The notes beneath the pieces were generated by a model. That model had not been told where the DNA came from. It saw nothing but the letters and a program-made list of their open reading frames with translations, and ran no database searches. Below are positions 2,492-27,060 of a DNA stretch of 27,936 nt, in pieces. Origin of the DNA: a virus; IMG/VR virus record IMGVR_UViG_3300001589_000118, positions 1 through 27,936 of that record; one strand, 5' to 3'. How positions within the stretch are numbered: the first letter of the stretch is position 1; the number at the start of each line of letters is the position of its first letter. The position numbers were made by a program, and so were the translations under genes.

Positions 2492-2878
2492 ATGATTATA
2501 TTTAAGCCACAAGCCAGCAATAGATTTATTTGCATACCCAGGAAATACGTTACTAGCGCTTTTATGACTATAAGAGATGATAGCACAAACGTTATTGTAA
2601 AATATACCTTAGTACCTCGGGTTGCTGGTGTTGGAAATATTGATATTAACAATGATACTTTTCAAGTGTATAATTCTACTTATACAAATTTAGTAGAGGG
2701 CCATTTTTACGATTTAACTATTTATGAAGATGATACAGAAGAAGTAGTAATGTTCAAGGATAGAATATTTTGCACTAATCAACAAGATGATATACAAGTT
2801 AACAATGATTTTTACAAATTAAATAAAGGCCAATTTCAAGAGTATGATGGTTTTAATAATGACTATATTGTAATATGA
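2492..2878 (+). CDS. Conserved phage structural protein, unknown (head-tail region)
   Basis: A 128-residue protein beginning MIIFKPQASNRF. I chose the ATG at 2492 because the CGTTATATAT element abuts it; an in-frame TTG at 2450 lies inside the upstream terminator and is unlikely. The sequence alternates beta-strand-like segments (ATMT-type strands, VVKYTLVPR, FYDLTIYEDD, EVVMFKDRIFCTNQ) and ends LNKGQFQEY...NDYIVI. I recall this ending from phages of Bacteroidota, directly upstream of portal genes. It is probably a small beta-rich virion protein such as a connector, decoration or fibre-chaperone component. Its stop overlaps the portal start by four bases, so the two are translationally coupled. 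Confidence 0.72.
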   Translation: MIIFKPQASNRFICIPRKYVTSAFMTIRDDSTNVIVKYTLVPRVAGVGNIDINNDTFQVYNSTYTNLVEGHFYDLTIYEDDTEEVVMFKDRIFCTNQQDDIQVNNDFYKLNKGQFQEYDGFNNDYIVI

Positions 2879-4929
2879 AAAAAAGAAATAGCAAGGGGCA
2901 ATTTAGCAAAACAAAAGTTTCAGAGTTTGGCTTTGTTAATTTGAGTACTTACACCAGCCCCGAAGTAAAGGAAGTTAACGGCTCGGATTGGATTGAATAC
3001 GGAATTGACAATAATTATTTCCAGTACTTGATAGATCGCTATAATGGCAGCCCTACAAATAACGCGGCAATAAACGGAATAAGCCAGGCAATTTATGGCA
3101 AAGGGCTAAACGCTACGGATAGCAGCAAAAAACCTAATGAGTATGCGCAAATGGTTTCTTTGTTTAGAAAAGATGTTGTTAGAAGATGCTGCTATGATCT
3201 TAAACTTATGGGCCAGGCTGCTATCCAGGTAATTTATTCTAAGGATAGAAGCAAAATTGTTCAACTAGAACATATGCCTATAGAAACTTTAAGAGCCGAA
3301 AAATGTGACGAAGATGGTAATGTACCGGCATACTTTTACTATAATGATTGGGCCAATATAAAAAGAACAGATGAGCCTTTAAGAATACCGGCCTTTGGTA
3401 TGTCAAAAGAGGGCATAGAAATTTATTATATTAAACCTTATAAAAGTGGTTTCTACTATTATTCTCCAGTCGATTACCAGGGAGGATTGCAATATGCAGA
3501 ATTGGAAGAAGAAGTATCAAATTACCACCTCAACAATATCCTAAATGGCCTCAGTCCATCAATGTTGATAAATTTCAATAATGGAACTCCAAACCAGCAA
3601 GAACGTAACTTAATAGAAACAAAAATTGCACAAAAATTCTCCGGAACTAGCAATGCTGGGAAATTTATTTTAGCTTTTAACGACAACAAGGAAAGCCAGG
3701 CAGAAATAACGCCGGTACAATTAAGCGATGCGCACAACCAATATCAATTTCTAAGCGAAGAAAGCACTTCAAAAATAATGGTAGCCCACAGAATTGTCTC
3801 TCCTATGTTATTAGGAATTAAAGATGGCTCCGGTCTAGGTAATAATGCTGACGAAATAAAAACAGCCAGCTTGCTTATGGATAATACGGTTATAAGACCA
3901 TTTCAAGAACTTTTGATTGATAGCTTTGATCAAATACTAGCTTACAATGATATTAGCTTAAACCTTTACTTTACAACTTTACAGCCGTTAGAATTTACAG
4001 AGGTTGACAGAAGTTTACAAGATGCAGAAACAATAGAGGAAGAAACCGGGGTTGAGATGTCAAAAATTAATCTTAAAATGATTGATGGAAAACAAGCATA
4101 CAAAACAAAAGAGGAAGCCGAAAAGGTTGCTGACGAAATGGGTTGTGGCGGATCGCACGAACACGAAGTTGAGGGGGTTGTTTATTATATGCCTTGTGTA
4201 TCTCACGAAGAACTAAAAGCGCCTTGCTGGGATGGTTACGAACAAATAGGTACAAAAACAAAAGACGGAAAGGAAGTGCCAAATTGCGTGCCTTTAGAAA
4301 AGGAATTTTTGTCTGATGAGATGGGCCTTGCTATTTTAGAAAATTTAAAGGGAGAAAATATTTCCGATCAATGGGAGTTAGTTGACGAACTTGATACGGA
4401 CATAGATATAAGCGACGAGGATTGGGCCACATTATGTATAAAAGAAAAAAAATCTTTATTTAGAAAATTTGCTGATGAGATAACTTCTAAACCCAGCGGC
4501 TTTAGTTATTTAGATAGTAAAAATTATAAGATTAGATATAAATACGCGGTTGGCTCAACAAAGCAAATGAAAGGCAATAATAAGTCAAGGGATTTTTGTA
4601 AAAATATGATGCAACTTTCAAGCGCTGGAGTTGTATATAGATTAGAGGGAATTGACGCAGCTTCTAGAGAGGGTGTGAACGAAAGGCTAGGGCATAAAGG
4701 GAGGCCCTACGATCTGTTTAAATTCAAAGGTGGAGTGTATTGTCGACATAAATGGGTGCGTGCCTTATACCGCCTTAAAAGCAATACTAAACCGTCTGAT
4801 GATTTAAGCGACTATAAAAAAACAAGATCAATCCCAGCTAGTTATATAAAAAGCCCTAGGGGAACAAAGCAATCGGAAATTGCACCAGTTAATATGCCAA
4901 ACCAGGGACATTATCCCGGCGTAAAATAA
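2875..4929 (+). CDS. Portal protein with modular C-terminal extension
   Basis: A 684-residue protein. Residues 38-380 look like a phage portal: WIEYGIDNNYFQYLIDRYNG (39-58), SPTNNAAINGISQAIYGKGL (59-78), a central alpha/beta body, then VAHRIVSPMLLG (303-314) and the long-helix region 325-360. The portal forms the dodecameric vertex through which the terminase pumps DNA. After residue 400 come two short Cys-containing modules: DGKQAYKTKEEAEKVADEMG with CGGSHEHEVEG and YYMPC (404-441), and CWDGYEQIG with KDGKEVPNCVP (451-473). The last 200 residues end in a domain with RDFCKNMMQLSSAG, VNERLGHKG and FKGGVYCRHKWVR. The length is well above a typical portal of about 450, because of this extension. 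The start is ATG with A-rich leader, overlapping the upstream stop. Confidence 0.78.
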   Translation: MKKRNSKGQFSKTKVSEFGFVNLSTYTSPEVKEVNGSDWIEYGIDNNYFQYLIDRYNGSPTNNAAINGISQAIYGKGLNATDSSKKPNEYAQMVSLFRKDVVRRCCYDLKLMGQAAIQVIYSKDRSKIVQLEHMPIETLRAEKCDEDGNVPAYFYYNDWANIKRTDEPLRIPAFGMSKEGIEIYYIKPYKSGFYYYSPVDYQGGLQYAELEEEVSNYHLNNILNGLSPSMLINFNNGTPNQQERNLIETKIAQKFSGTSNAGKFILAFNDNKESQAEITPVQLSDAHNQYQFLSEESTSKIMVAHRIVSPMLLGIKDGSGLGNNADEIKTASLLMDNTVIRPFQELLIDSFDQILAYNDISLNLYFTTLQPLEFTEVDRSLQDAETIEEETGVEMSKINLKMIDGKQAYKTKEEAEKVADEMGCGGSHEHEVEGVVYYMPCVSHEELKAPCWDGYEQIGTKTKDGKEVPNCVPLEKEFLSDEMGLAILENLKGENISDQWELVDELDTDIDISDEDWATLCIKEKKSLFRKFADEITSKPSGFSYLDSKNYKIRYKYAVGSTKQMKGNNKSRDFCKNMMQLSSAGVVYRLEGIDAASREGVNERLGHKGRPYDLFKFKGGVYCRHKWVRALYRLKSNTKPSDDLSDYKKTRSIPASYIKSPRGTKQSEIAPVNMPNQGHYPGVK

Positions 4930-15246: not shown

Positions 15247-16497
15247 ATGGAGTTAGTTAAGATCAACCAGGTAAAGCCAAACGAAAAAAACCCTAGATTT
15301 ATAAAAGACTATAAATTTGAAAAGCTAGTAAAATCTATTAAGGAATTTCCTCAGATGCTAAAATTGCGCCCTATTGTAGTAAATAGCGATATGGTTGTAC
15401 TGGGTGGGAATATGCGTTTAAAGGCTTGTAAGGAAGCCGGGCTTGATGAGGTGTATATTTTAAAAGCTGATAACCTTACAGAAGAACAGCAACAAGAATT
15501 TATTGTAAAAGACAATGTAGGGTTTGGAGAATGGGATTGGGATATACTGGCTAACGAATGGGATATAAAACAATTAGAGGAATGGGGCTTAGATGGTTTT
15601 CCTTTTGAGGAAGAAACGGCTGAAAAAGAAGAACATAATAAACTTCACGACATTTTTATTATACCGCCGTTTAGTGTTTTAGATACAAAGCAAGGGTACT
15701 GGATAGATAGAAAAAAATATTGGAAAGAATTAATTGGAGATAACGGCGAAACTAGGGAGGGGCTTTTAGGTGGCGGAATAATGGAGCAAAGACATAGCGG
15801 AGTTAGCATACTTGATCCGGTGCTTGCTGAGATATCCAATAGATGGTTTGGCATAGAAAACGGAAAAACTTTTGATTGCTTTGCTGGGGATAGTGTTTTT
15901 GGTTATGTAAGCGACGCGCTGGGGAATACTTTTACCGGAATAGAATTAAGGCAAGAACAAGCCGATTTAAACAATAAAAGGTTAAAAGGTAGTAAGAGTA
16001 CCTATATTTGTGATGATGGCGTAAACGTGCTAAAACACATACCAGCGGCCAGTCAAGACCTATTGTTTAGCTGTCCGCCATATTTTGATTTAGAAGTTTA
16101 CTCTGAACTTAAAAATGATGCCAGCAACCAGGAAAGCTATGCAGACTTTTTAAAAATATTAGACAAGGCATTTACTGGGGCTATAAAGTGTTTAAAGGAA
16201 GATAGGTTTGCGGTTATTGTGGTCGGGGATATTAGAGATAAAAAAGGTTTTTATTATGGTTTCCCGGATGATATAAAAAATATATTTTTAAAAAATGGCG
16301 TGCAAATATATAACGAAATGGTAATGGCGGATAGTTTAGGCTCATTGCCTCAAAGAGTAGGGCGCTATATGATAAATAGAAAAATTGGAAAATGCCATCA
16401 AAACGTTTTAGTATTTTACAAAGGCAATACCAAAAATATTAGAAAAAATTATAAAAAATTAAACTTTACAAATTTAGATGAAAGCACAAATGTATAA
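15247..16497 (+). CDS. ParB-like / DNA methyltransferase fusion
   Basis: A 416-residue fusion. Residues 1-115 are ParB/sulfiredoxin-like: VKINQVKPNEKNPR (4-17) and MVVLGGNMRLKACKEAG (49-65) with the GGxxR box. Residues 205-400 are a SAM-dependent DNA methyltransferase: TFDCFAGDSVFGY (208-220) and FTGIELRQEQA (229-239) form the SAM pocket, and FSCPPYFDLE (274-283) is the catalytic (S/D/N)PPY-type motif IV with Cys before the first Pro. The class modifies adenine N6 or cytosine N4 in DNA, often protecting phage genomes from restriction or marking them. The catalytic motif comes after the SAM motif. There is no restriction partner next to it. It heads the packaging block and overlaps the SpeD-like gene by 20 bases. 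Confidence 0.82.
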   Translation: MELVKINQVKPNEKNPRFIKDYKFEKLVKSIKEFPQMLKLRPIVVNSDMVVLGGNMRLKACKEAGLDEVYILKADNLTEEQQQEFIVKDNVGFGEWDWDILANEWDIKQLEEWGLDGFPFEEETAEKEEHNKLHDIFIIPPFSVLDTKQGYWIDRKKYWKELIGDNGETREGLLGGGIMEQRHSGVSILDPVLAEISNRWFGIENGKTFDCFAGDSVFGYVSDALGNTFTGIELRQEQADLNNKRLKGSKSTYICDDGVNVLKHIPAASQDLLFSCPPYFDLEVYSELKNDASNQESYADFLKILDKAFTGAIKCLKEDRFAVIVVGDIRDKKGFYYGFPDDIKNIFLKNGVQIYNEMVMADSLGSLPQRVGRYMINRKIGKCHQNVLVFYKGNTKNIRKNYKKLNFTNLDESTNV

Positions 16498-16747
16498 TTA
16501 CGCGGTGTGGGTTGATGAGACAAACCCAGTTGCACTAAAAAACAAATACAATGAACTACTAAGACAAAGCGGTTTTAATGTGTTAGACGTAGCCGAAAAG
16601 CATTTTAAGCCTTTTGGTTATACCGCGCTTTTTTTATTAAGCGAAAGCCATTTAGCAATTCATACTTTCCCGGAGCATAACGAAACCTATATAGAGTTAT
16701 CAAGTTGCGTAAAAGATCCTTTTAATTTATTTATAAAAAATCATTAA
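16478..16747 (+). CDS. speD: Minimal S-adenosylmethionine decarboxylase (SpeD/SpeH-class) homologue
   Basis: An 89-residue protein. YTALFLLSESHLAIHTFPEH (48-67) is the signature of prokaryotic AdoMet decarboxylase, a self-cleaving pyruvoyl enzyme: cleavage between Glu56 and Ser57 would make the pyruvoyl group, with His62 and Cys77 (in IELSSCV) as the other catalytic residues. Their spacing is the same as Ser63, His68 and Cys83 of the Thermotoga maritima enzyme (offset 6 each). The protein ends just after the DPF stretch, so about 30 residues of the usual 115-130 are missing at the C-terminus. The family makes decarboxylated SAM for spermidine, but some relatives have become ornithine or arginine decarboxylases. 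No spermidine synthase is present in the window. Confidence 0.8.
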   Translation: MKAQMYNYAVWVDETNPVALKNKYNELLRQSGFNVLDVAEKHFKPFGYTALFLLSESHLAIHTFPEHNETYIELSSCVKDPFNLFIKNH

Positions 16748-16878
16748 TGGAAAAAGATATTAGAGGTATGTCATTGCCGGAAAGGTACAAGTATATAAAC
16801 GAACAAAAACGGAAAAGGTTTAACCCCACAAGGGAAGAAAAAGAAGCACAAAAGAAAAAAAATAATGAACAAAGATAG
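16747..16878 (+). CDS. Small charged protein, unknown
   Basis: A 43-residue, highly charged protein (MEKDIRGMSLPERYKYINEQ, then KRKRFNPTREEKEAQKKKNN). Its ATG overlaps the SpeD stop (TAATG), and its last 14 bases overlap the small terminase gene. Probably unstructured; no function recognised. Confidence 0.5.
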   Translation: MEKDIRGMSLPERYKYINEQKRKRFNPTREEKEAQKKKNNEQR

Positions 16879-17224
16879 ACACATAAAAAAGGAGAGTTTA
16901 CTCAAGGCCCTGGAACAAAGTTTGGGGGTTGTAACTGTAGCTTGTAAAAAAGCGGACATACCTAGATCAACATATTATAAGTGGCTTAAAGAAGATGAGG
17001 CTTTTGCTATTGAGGTAAGGGATATAGAAAACGTTGCTTTAGATTTTGCCGAAAGCCAATTACATAAACAAATATCCGCAAACTCGACCGCGGCTACAAT
17101 ATTTTATTTAAAGACCAAAGGTAAAAAAAGAGGCTATATTGAGCGCCAAGAAATAACTGGGGCTGATGGCATGCCAACTAACTTTCAAATAGAAATAATT
17201 GATAAAACCGAAGATACAGACTAA
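16865..17224 (+). CDS. terS: Terminase small subunit
   Basis: A 119-residue protein. An N-terminal helix-turn-helix (LLKALEQSLGVVTVACKKAD, then IPRSTYYKWLKED, about 12-44) is followed by a helical stretch (VALDFAESQLHKQISANSTA) and by ATIFYLKTKGKKRGY (92-106), the usual ending before the C-terminal tail that contacts the large subunit. This architecture is common to small terminases that recognise the packaging start site. It sits directly before, and overlaps, the large subunit gene. Length is typical. Confidence 0.8.
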   Translation: MNKDRHIKKESLLKALEQSLGVVTVACKKADIPRSTYYKWLKEDEAFAIEVRDIENVALDFAESQLHKQISANSTAATIFYLKTKGKKRGYIERQEITGADGMPTNFQIEIIDKTEDTD

Positions 17225-18362
17225 TATTGTTTATAAGCATTTAGCAAATACAGATAAAAAAATTGTAGTTGAGCAAGGTGGAACTCGCTCCGGTAAAACC
17301 TACAATATACTTTTATGGATAATATTTAACTATTGCTCCCAAAACAATAATAAGATTATAACAATATGCCGTAAATCATTTCCAAGTCTAAGGGCGACAG
17401 TTATGAGGGATTTTATGTTCATACTACAAAACTATAAATGCTATAGCGAACAATACCATAATAAGTCTAACTCCGAATATAATTTGTTTGGAAACCTGGT
17501 AGAATTTATATCACTAGACCAGCCCCAAAAAATTAGGGGCCGCAAAAGAGACTTGCTATTTGTAAACGAGGGAAACGAATTGTATTACGAAGATATGCAG
17601 CAATTACTATTTAGAACTCAAGATAGAATTATTTTAGATTTTAACCCGTCTGACGAATACCACTGGATATATGATAAATTAATACCTAGGGACGATTGCG
17701 TATTTTTTAAAACAACCTATTTAGATAACCCATTTATTGAGGCATCAATTAAAAGCGAGATTGAGCGCCTTAAAGATACAGACGAACAATACTGGCAAAT
17801 TTACGGCCTAGGGGAAAGAGCCGCAAGTAGAAGCACTATTTTTAAATATGTTGAGGTTAACCAAATACCTAAAGAAGCTGAACTAATTGCATACGGAATG
17901 GATTTTGGGTACACGAATGATCCTAGCACATTTGTATCGGTTTACAGCCAGGGCCACAATTTATATATACAAGAACATTTATATAGAACGCAAATGAATA
18001 CAAGCGATATAAATAACTTTTTAAAACAACTTAATTTAACAAGCAAACCAATTTATGCGGATAGCGCCGAGCCAAGGTTAATATCTGAATTGCGTGCTAT
18101 GGGCCACAATATATTTTCTAGTATAAAAGGTAAGGATAGTATTAATGCCGGGATAGATCTACTTAAAAGGTACAAAATACACATACTAGCAACCTCAACA
18201 AACGCCATAAGCGAATTTAGAAACTACAAATGGAAAGAGGATAAAGCTGGTATGTTGATTAATACGCCGGAGGATAAAAATAACCATATAATTGATCCTT
18301 GTCGTTACGCAACCTACTCAATATTAAGCAGACCAAACTTTGGTAAATATGCCTTACACTAA
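17199..18362 (+). CDS. terL: Terminase large subunit
   Basis: A 387-residue packaging motor and nuclease. ATPase domain: Walker A QGGTRSGKT (26-34), Walker B LLFVNEGNEL (119-128), coupling motif ILDFNPS (145-151). Nuclease domain: YGMDFGYTNDP (232-242, Asp235), IYADSAEPR (285-293, Asp288) and NHIIDPCRY (362-370, Asp366), the RNase H-like acidic triad. It pumps DNA through the portal and cuts the concatemer. It has no ATG before Walker A; the TTG at 17199 overlapping the small subunit gives full-length N-terminal sequence (KIQTNIVYKHL), so I use it. The protein is a little shorter than average (400-450) but complete in motifs. Confidence 0.93.
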   Translation: MIKPKIQTNIVYKHLANTDKKIVVEQGGTRSGKTYNILLWIIFNYCSQNNNKIITICRKSFPSLRATVMRDFMFILQNYKCYSEQYHNKSNSEYNLFGNLVEFISLDQPQKIRGRKRDLLFVNEGNELYYEDMQQLLFRTQDRIILDFNPSDEYHWIYDKLIPRDDCVFFKTTYLDNPFIEASIKSEIERLKDTDEQYWQIYGLGERAASRSTIFKYVEVNQIPKEAELIAYGMDFGYTNDPSTFVSVYSQGHNLYIQEHLYRTQMNTSDINNFLKQLNLTSKPIYADSAEPRLISELRAMGHNIFSSIKGKDSINAGIDLLKRYKIHILATSTNAISEFRNYKWKEDKAGMLINTPEDKNNHIIDPCRYATYSILSRPNFGKYALH

Positions 18363-26475: not shown

Positions 26476-27060
26476 ATGAGGATAATAGAACTTATTTTAG
26501 ATGAGGAAGATTTTGAGGCTGGAGTTGAGGCAATCTCTATAGTCGAAAACCCAGCGATCGAAAGCGACTTTGTGGCTTTAAAAAACCAGGAGGTAAAACT
26601 TGCAGAAGTTAGCAGCGAAAAAAAAATACTTATGGGGCCTTTGCTTATTCCAAATAAGCCTATTTATAGGAATGGTAGCGAGGGAGAATATTATATATAC
26701 TTTTCAAAAGAAACAATAGAAAAAGCCTCGCAAATGTTTTTACAGAATGGCAATCAAAGTAACTCAACCTTAGAACACGCCAGGGCCTTAAATGGTTTAA
26801 CGTTAGTCGAAAGCTGGCTGGTAGAAGATAAAGCCAAAGATAAAAGCGCGGTTTATGGTTTAGATGTTCCAGTGGGAACGTGGATGGGGAGTGTCAAAGT
26901 TCAAAACGATAAAGTTTGGAATGAATTTGTAAAGACAAAAAAAGTAAAAGGTTTTTCGATAGAGGGCTATTTTGCGGATAAAATGGAAGCACCAAAAGAG
27001 GCTATAGAAGAACAAATGGCTGAACAATTATTAAACCAAATTAAACAAATAATAAAATAA
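26476..27060 (+). CDS. XkdF-like prohead protease
   Basis: A 194-residue protein. The N-terminus LILDEEDFEAGVEAISIVEN (7-26) followed by PAIESDFVAL is typical of XkdF-like proteins, and the central LEHARALNGLTLVESWLVED (99-118), PVGTWMGSVKV and VKGFSIEGYF (157-166) are the family core. His101 and Ser161 are candidate catalytic residues of the serine-type prohead protease fold. It would process scaffold or capsid proteins during maturation. Position right before the tag-bearing genes and the head genes fits. The stop overlaps the next ATG (TAATG). Confidence 0.77.
   Translation: MRIIELILDEEDFEAGVEAISIVENPAIESDFVALKNQEVKLAEVSSEKKILMGPLLIPNKPIYRNGSEGEYYIYFSKETIEKASQMFLQNGNQSNSTLEHARALNGLTLVESWLVEDKAKDKSAVYGLDVPVGTWMGSVKVQNDKVWNEFVKTKKVKGFSIEGYFADKMEAPKEAIEEQMAEQLLNQIKQIIK

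Follow-up and report, generated by a model that had tools for sequence, protein, structure and literature searches.

The mini AdoMet decarboxylase (SpeD) encoded by this marine bacterial virus probably supplies decarboxylated SAM (dcSAM) to the product of the gene that it overlaps, a repurposed amino-methyltransferase fused to a ParB-like domain that would aminopropylate phage DNA, a reading to which a probability of about 0.6 can be given. The evidence for it comes from the linkage of both genes, the co-variation of a single cofactor-loop residue with SpeD, the predicted folds and the absence of spermidine synthase matches from the phage records. The window, i.e., the whole stretch of viral DNA analysed, has 27,936 nucleotides, and both genes of the pair, their motifs and both terminase genes lie on its plus strand.

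According to the proposed pathway, the mini-SpeD would cut itself at Glu56-Ser57, forming a pyruvoyl group, and turn SAM into dcSAM. The pocket of the fusion, bearing Asp215 instead of glycine, would repel the SAM carboxylate and bind the dcSAM amine, and the enzyme would then move a 3-aminopropyl group, and not a methyl group, onto the exocyclic amine of a phage DNA base (N4 of cytosine, N6 of adenine or N2 of guanine). The phage DNA would thereby acquire a positively charged hypermodification, probably directed against restriction or other DNA-targeting defences, with charge neutralisation during packaging perhaps as a further role. Taken alone, the use of dcSAM by the fusion is quite likely; DNA is its presumed acceptor by family resemblance, and the anti-restriction or charge-neutralising role is likewise a conditional part of the proposal.

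The Mini-SpeD Gene and Its Product

The open reading frame at positions 16478-16747 encodes 89 amino acids and scores 52.9 bits (cut-off 25; E 5e-14) against the Pfam family AdoMet_dc (PF02675), the match covering positions 17-79 of the 107 in the profile; PHROG 27309 is matched over residues 1-87 (2.9e-35). Regarding the active site, the sequence-only reading had placed Ser57, His62 and Cys77 at the exact spacing of Ser63, His68 and Cys83 of T. maritima AdoMetDC, which is borne out by an ungapped alignment: Glu56-Ser57 (16643-16648), where self-cleavage is predicted to give rise to the pyruvoyl group, lines up with Glu62-Ser63 of T. maritima, and is followed by the catalytic His62 (16661-16663) and Cys77 (16706-16708). 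Homologues lacking Ser57 or Cys77, which that reading had named as evidence against itself, were searched for, and all four residues are invariant in an alignment of 37 mini-SpeDs, 37 of 37 keeping both the serine and the cysteine. Outside this alignment stands the SpeD of locus L059 (4295-4552), close to the one of phage P2559S and adjoining an Asp-type methyltransferase, in which about 20 residues are deleted in frame, the whole cleavage site included; this would reflect an inactivated copy or an error of the assembly.

The AlphaFold model of the mini-SpeD has a pLDDT of 96.3, and prokaryotic AdoMetDCs take the first four places among its PDB matches (Z 10.8-11.2, 88-89 residues). The T. maritima enzyme is matched over 88 residues with a Z of 11.0, limited to its chain residues 2-96, and thus the viral protein ends about 30 residues early, as had been proposed, the absent part corresponding in the model to the C-terminal region beyond the second helix. 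Moreover, the dN/dS of 0.06-0.14 relative to 8 relatives (about 0.1) indicates purifying selection, and the frame is confirmed as a real SpeD-family gene with its catalytic residues intact. A chance open reading frame is ruled out by this dN/dS range together with the family matches, and a degenerate pseudogene by the invariant active site and the high-confidence fold.

Recurring relatives have 85-106 amino acids, and 21 close ones are found in IMG/VR. Among the isolates of the annotated phage collection, Croceibacter phage P2559S, present under two accessions, is the sole one with a SpeD matching at least 80% of the mini-SpeD; its protein is 51% identical and has 106 amino acids compared to 89. 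An E. coli strain deleted for speD regained spermidine with the P2559S SpeD, which is a bona fide AdoMet decarboxylase (PMC9992855). With 46.1 bits, below the equivalog cut-off of 75.65 of TIGR03330, the mini-SpeD is classed as a member of the SpeD family and not as a TIGR03330 equivalog; with 63.3 bits, the P2559S enzyme, which is proven active, also misses this value, so the cut-off leaves out an active subfamily. Compared to class 1b SpeD, the type of T. maritima and B. subtilis, the mini-SpeD is alike in fold, in the Glu-Ser site and in the catalytic His and Cys; it differs in its shorter length, in being linked to a relative of DNA methyltransferases and not to SpeE, and in two replaced positions, Trp70 by Phe64 and Ser55 by Thr49. 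As the active P2559S enzyme has Phe and Thr at the same two positions, these replacements do not abolish activity. By analogy with this relative, the 89-residue form would be expected to act as an AdoMet decarboxylase as well. In P2559S, a gene with a methyltransferase domain overlaps the SpeD gene by 38 nt, and since this cultured phage thus also has the methyltransferase partner, it offers a natural experimental system (locus L022).

Gene Linkage and Neighbourhood

In each of the 22 loci that were collected first, a homologue of the fusion gene lies directly 5' of the SpeD gene, usually overlapping it, and the linkage persists where methyltransferase identity has fallen to about 45%. The overlap with the ParB-methyltransferase gene described in the sequence-only reading is of 20 nt in the window (16478-16497), and such an overlap, or a near-abutment, is common to nearly all linked loci. 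Across the same 22 loci the methyltransferase is constant, and the terminase encoded downstream ranges from similar to distant, a few loci having none that could be found; other neighbouring genes likewise diverge or are missing. SpeD is tied to the fusion and not to the terminase. The small terminase-like gene (16865-17224; PHROG 4044 and 309) and the large terminase gene (17199-18362; PF04466, PF17288 and TIGR01547) serve as context only. In the window, the portal gene (2875-4929), this large terminase gene and a gene resembling head maturation proteases (26476-27060) lie far apart, an order unusual for a tailed phage, which may reflect a permuted or a genuinely rearranged genome.

Two kinds of SpeD are linked to the methyltransferase, one being the mini form and the other a full-length class 1b form, the latter exemplified by locus L086, whose TIGR03330 score of 99.1 bits is above the cut-off. 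Both kinds are interspersed on the methyltransferase tree, always with Asp215, which suggests that one dcSAM source was replaced by another during the evolution of the pair; the SpeD tree is too short and weak for deep branches, so this replacement is suggested and not proven.

The ParB-Methyltransferase Fusion

The upstream gene (15247-16497) encodes a protein of 416 amino acids, assigned by PF01555, PHROG 498 and its fold, and proposed here as a dcSAM-dependent DNA aminopropyltransferase. Its ParB-like N-terminal domain (15247-15590) matches PF02195 weakly over residues 2-82, with 22.7 bits against a cut-off of 26.3, and PHROG 620 over residues 2-127, while the match to PF01555 reaches 35.7 bits, above cut-off. 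The protein bears the marks of class I N4/N6 amino-methyltransferases, namely motif I, an (x)PPY motif IV, PF01555 and the class I methyltransferase fold of its model (pLDDT 86.7). Motif I, FDCFAGDS (15871-15894), is placed in the cofactor-binding loop by alignment and predicted secondary structure, and its Asp215 (15889-15891) is situated, in the model, after the first strand (207-210), in the loop that leads to the next helix (217-224). The nearest solved structures to the model are Trm11, TrmN and Trm14, N2-guanine tRNA enzymes (Z 18-20), and BpsA, a polyamine synthase using dcSAM, is also among the matches (Z 15.2).

Motif IV, SCPPY (16069-16083), is the active-site motif of exocyclic-amino methyltransferases. 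Its Cys-Pro-Pro-Tyr part (residues 276-279; 16072-16083) is invariant in both groups, being found in all Asp-type and Gly-type members compared. At the position of this cysteine, Asp, Asn or Ser is the usual residue of DNA amino-methyltransferases.

The Gly215 form of PHROG 498, as in gp36 of Enterococcus phage phiFL3A, has the same domain layout, the xCPPY motif and often the same site near the terminase genes. It differs from the fusion described here by the sequence FAGGSVRG in place of FAGDSVFG and by having no SpeD neighbour, and is presumably engaged in SAM-dependent methylation.

Co-Variation of Residue 215 with SpeD

Motif I had been predicted to be GD in SpeD-linked members and GG in unlinked ones, a prediction recorded ahead of the alignment of the unlinked homologues, and the first comparison gave GD in 21 of 21 linked methyltransferases and GG in 5 of 5 unlinked phage homologues. 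Viral contigs and bacterial genomes then provided larger sets, in which SpeD was looked for with a purpose-built profile. The first comprised 151 homologues at 70% non-redundancy, each with at least 700 nt downstream: 51 had Asp with SpeD, none Gly with SpeD, 4 Asp without SpeD and 96 Gly without SpeD, the corresponding counts at 50% non-redundancy being 10, 0, 1 and 33. Residue 215 is the sole column separating the groups perfectly in this set. A second set of 56 homologues, less than 90% identical to the first, gave 37 with Asp and SpeD, none with Gly and SpeD, 3 with Asp and 15 with Gly lacking SpeD (for 14 of these 15, the downstream sequence has at least 700 nt), plus L330, which has a gap/Arg and no SpeD. 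With both sets pooled, all 88 non-redundant SpeD-linked methyltransferases carry Asp215.

The Fisher tests of these three tables (p 6e-36, 4e-9 and 2e-10, respectively) overstate independence, as the pairing of Asp with SpeD goes back to what is in essence a single origin: the methyltransferases with Asp fall essentially into one clade, with about 5 Asp/Gly changes and 8 SpeD changes on the tree. An independent-pairs test gives 3-4 concordant pairs, none in the opposite direction and 2-3 without difference (sign test p 0.125-0.25). The direction of the co-variation is consistent, but the independent events are few. The informative changes are those inside the Asp clade, where exactly Asp215 has been lost in five SpeD-less members (L080, L081, L215, L217 and L330), of which L081 and L217 retain nearly all other residues typical of the clade.

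Aspartate is kept without SpeD in a clade of six sequences with the motif FAGDTQKG and in L070, L082, L331, L308 and L347, and searches of the genomes or records of these Asp-type, SpeD-less members found no SpeD match at any other site, most of the searched records being fragments. Thus, Asp215 alone does not imply a dcSAM supply. The FAGDTQKG clade, L070, L082 and L347 are also altered at neighbouring pocket positions, such as residues 218 or 245; the FAGDTQKG clade has gained Lys218 and lost Arg245, and one may speculate that it went back to SAM use by means of this lysine. In two of its members (L056, 4565-5719; L058, 1959-3143), there is an adjoining protein of about 390 amino acids with the motifs SGGKDCLAT and CGSCYKC, which has no Pfam match, resembles PP-loop ATPases by eye and might belong to another modification route. 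Other fusion homologues, set apart in the alignment and having ILKGNS or ILKGSS in the motif I columns (L085, 2914-6367; L075, 1411-5370), are followed by a protein similar to Asp/Asn beta-hydroxylases (PF05118, 54 bits in L085) and are accompanied by a PLP-dependent, PALP-like enzyme below cut-off, possibly another DNA hypermodification cassette on the same scaffold.

Asp215 and the Aspartate of dcSAM-Using Enzymes

Both SpeE and BpsA use dcSAM as an aminopropyl donor and have acidic residues in the cofactor loop, and Asp215 of the fusion is predicted to play the corresponding part. In the spermidine synthase of Datura, Asp103 of the GGGDGG motif binds the dcSAM amine through a salt bridge and is believed to keep SAM away by repulsion of its carboxylate, and the replacement of this aspartate (D103I) abolished aminopropyl transfer and conferred a SAM-dependent methyltransferase activity (PMC3725402). 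Likewise, Asp159 and Asp160 of the GDDD motif of BpsA position the aminopropyl group of dcSAM (PMC12979288). Asp215 appears to occupy the same place as the SpeE aspartate, judging by the motif register (G-D-S vs G-D-G) and the predicted secondary structure. The fusion has no detectable sequence similarity to SpeE, and a profile-profile alignment of both with hhalign returned no alignment, so the correspondence rests on the motif register. A further difference is that SpeE and BpsA act on small amines. From its sequence, the fusion is predicted to have lost SAM-dependent methyl transfer through the change to Asp215.

Alternative Explanations

Polyamine supply, in which dcSAM would pass to a host spermidine synthase and yield spermidine for translation or packaging, with the neighbouring methyltransferase being incidental, is unlikely, even though SpeD is carried by many unrelated phages and the P2559S enzyme brings back spermidine in E. 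coli cells that have SpeE. It leaves unexplained the strict link to one methyltransferase family and the co-varying Asp215, and a Spermine_synth (SpeE) match is found in 0 of the 44 phage records with the SpeD-methyltransferase pair. Regarding the bacterial genomes with the pair, in most of which the phage-type SpeD is the only SpeD, 12 of 21 have some Spermine_synth match (10 above cut-off), which favours polyamine supply, and 9 of 21, including Dysgonomonas sp. PF1-14, have none, an absence that is weak evidence as several of the 21 are draft or metagenome assemblies; these nine hosts have no evident route from dcSAM to spermidine. The suggestion in the sequence-only reading of polyamines for packaging is accordingly left weak, SpeD following the methyltransferase. 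That reading had also considered ornithine or arginine decarboxylation, in which case the linkage would reflect, in the view taken here, shared operon ancestry only. Neofunctionalised SpeDs are indeed widespread, phages included, those acting on ornithine being marked by diagnostic Gln, Thr, Phe and Tyr positions, and yet such a change is very improbable here: P2559S SpeD, which has the same motif, is proven as an AdoMetDC and makes dcSAM in E. coli, nearly all members retain the proline of HTxPE, which fits the conserved proline of true AdoMetDCs if the same position is meant, and Asp215 would be left without explanation.

It could also be that SpeD consumes SAM, and that dcSAM inhibits SAM-dependent enzymes, blunting host restriction-modification, with the aspartate serving tolerance or sensing and the phage enzyme still methylating. 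The methyltransferase adjoining SpeD would suit such a role, and in a passage of one source dcSAM is described as a competitive inhibitor of methylation (PMC2933235). Depletion of SAM, already raised from the sequence, keeps a small probability on these grounds, but it does not account for the motif I aspartate: as this residue is needed for dcSAM in spermidine synthase and is thought there to repel the SAM carboxylate, it should, by analogy, harm the SAM-dependent methylation of the phage enzyme itself. Comparably doubtful is an acceptor other than DNA, such as tRNA, a protein or a small amine, which would make the fusion a new polyamine or RNA aminopropyltransferase. Its top structural matches, the Trm enzymes, and the presence of BpsA among them point that way, and the ParB-like N-terminal domain, the DNA-methylase Pfam and PHROG matches and the frequent proximity to the terminase favour DNA. 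As for the aminopropylation of DNA by dcSAM, the sequence-only reading had found a SAM substrate shared by SpeD and the adjacent methyltransferase suggestive; the link between both proteins proved meaningful, given the 22 of 22 loci and the co-variation of Asp215, and the data point to the product of SpeD, instead of a shared SAM, as the cofactor of the fusion.

Relation to Known Systems and Significance

In the CmoA-CmoX system, a SAM variant made by the phage serves a dedicated DNA-modifying enzyme (PMC12783734). The pair described here resembles it in that a cofactor-making gene is steadily paired with a transferase of modified pocket (here 88 linked members, all with Asp) and in that one charged pocket residue sets the selectivity, an arginine in CmoX and, as predicted, an aspartate in the fusion. 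The differences concern the cofactor, carboxy-SAM compared to dcSAM, the transferase family, C5-cytosine compared to amino-methyltransferases, and the added charge, which is predicted to be the opposite here. The CmoX paper contains no mention of SpeD, aminopropyl or decarboxyl- (PMC12783734), and the word methyltransferase does not occur in the virosphere polyamine paper. In the openly accessible journal literature, no report was found of an aminopropylated DNA base or of a dcSAM-dependent DNA modification. An earlier prediction could stand in the account of DNA base modification systems by Iyer et al. 2013. The logic of an altered SAM with a retuned DNA methyltransferase is already known (CmoA-CmoX, 2025), and the chemistry would be new if confirmed.

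On balance, the evidence inclines towards a widespread phage pair that carries out dcSAM-dependent aminopropylation of DNA bases and that would have evolved by a Gly-to-Asp change, in parallel to spermidine synthase. The role of Asp215 is a prediction on one residue, testable in a single assay. If true, an N-(3-aminopropyl) base would represent a new class of DNA modification, as well as a new class of acceptor for aminopropyltransferases, and the primary-amine handle on DNA would be a useful tool. It would also explain why some phage SpeDs occur without a spermidine synthase, and would be, after CmoA-CmoX, a second and independent case of a SAM variant made by phages for a dedicated DNA-modifying enzyme.
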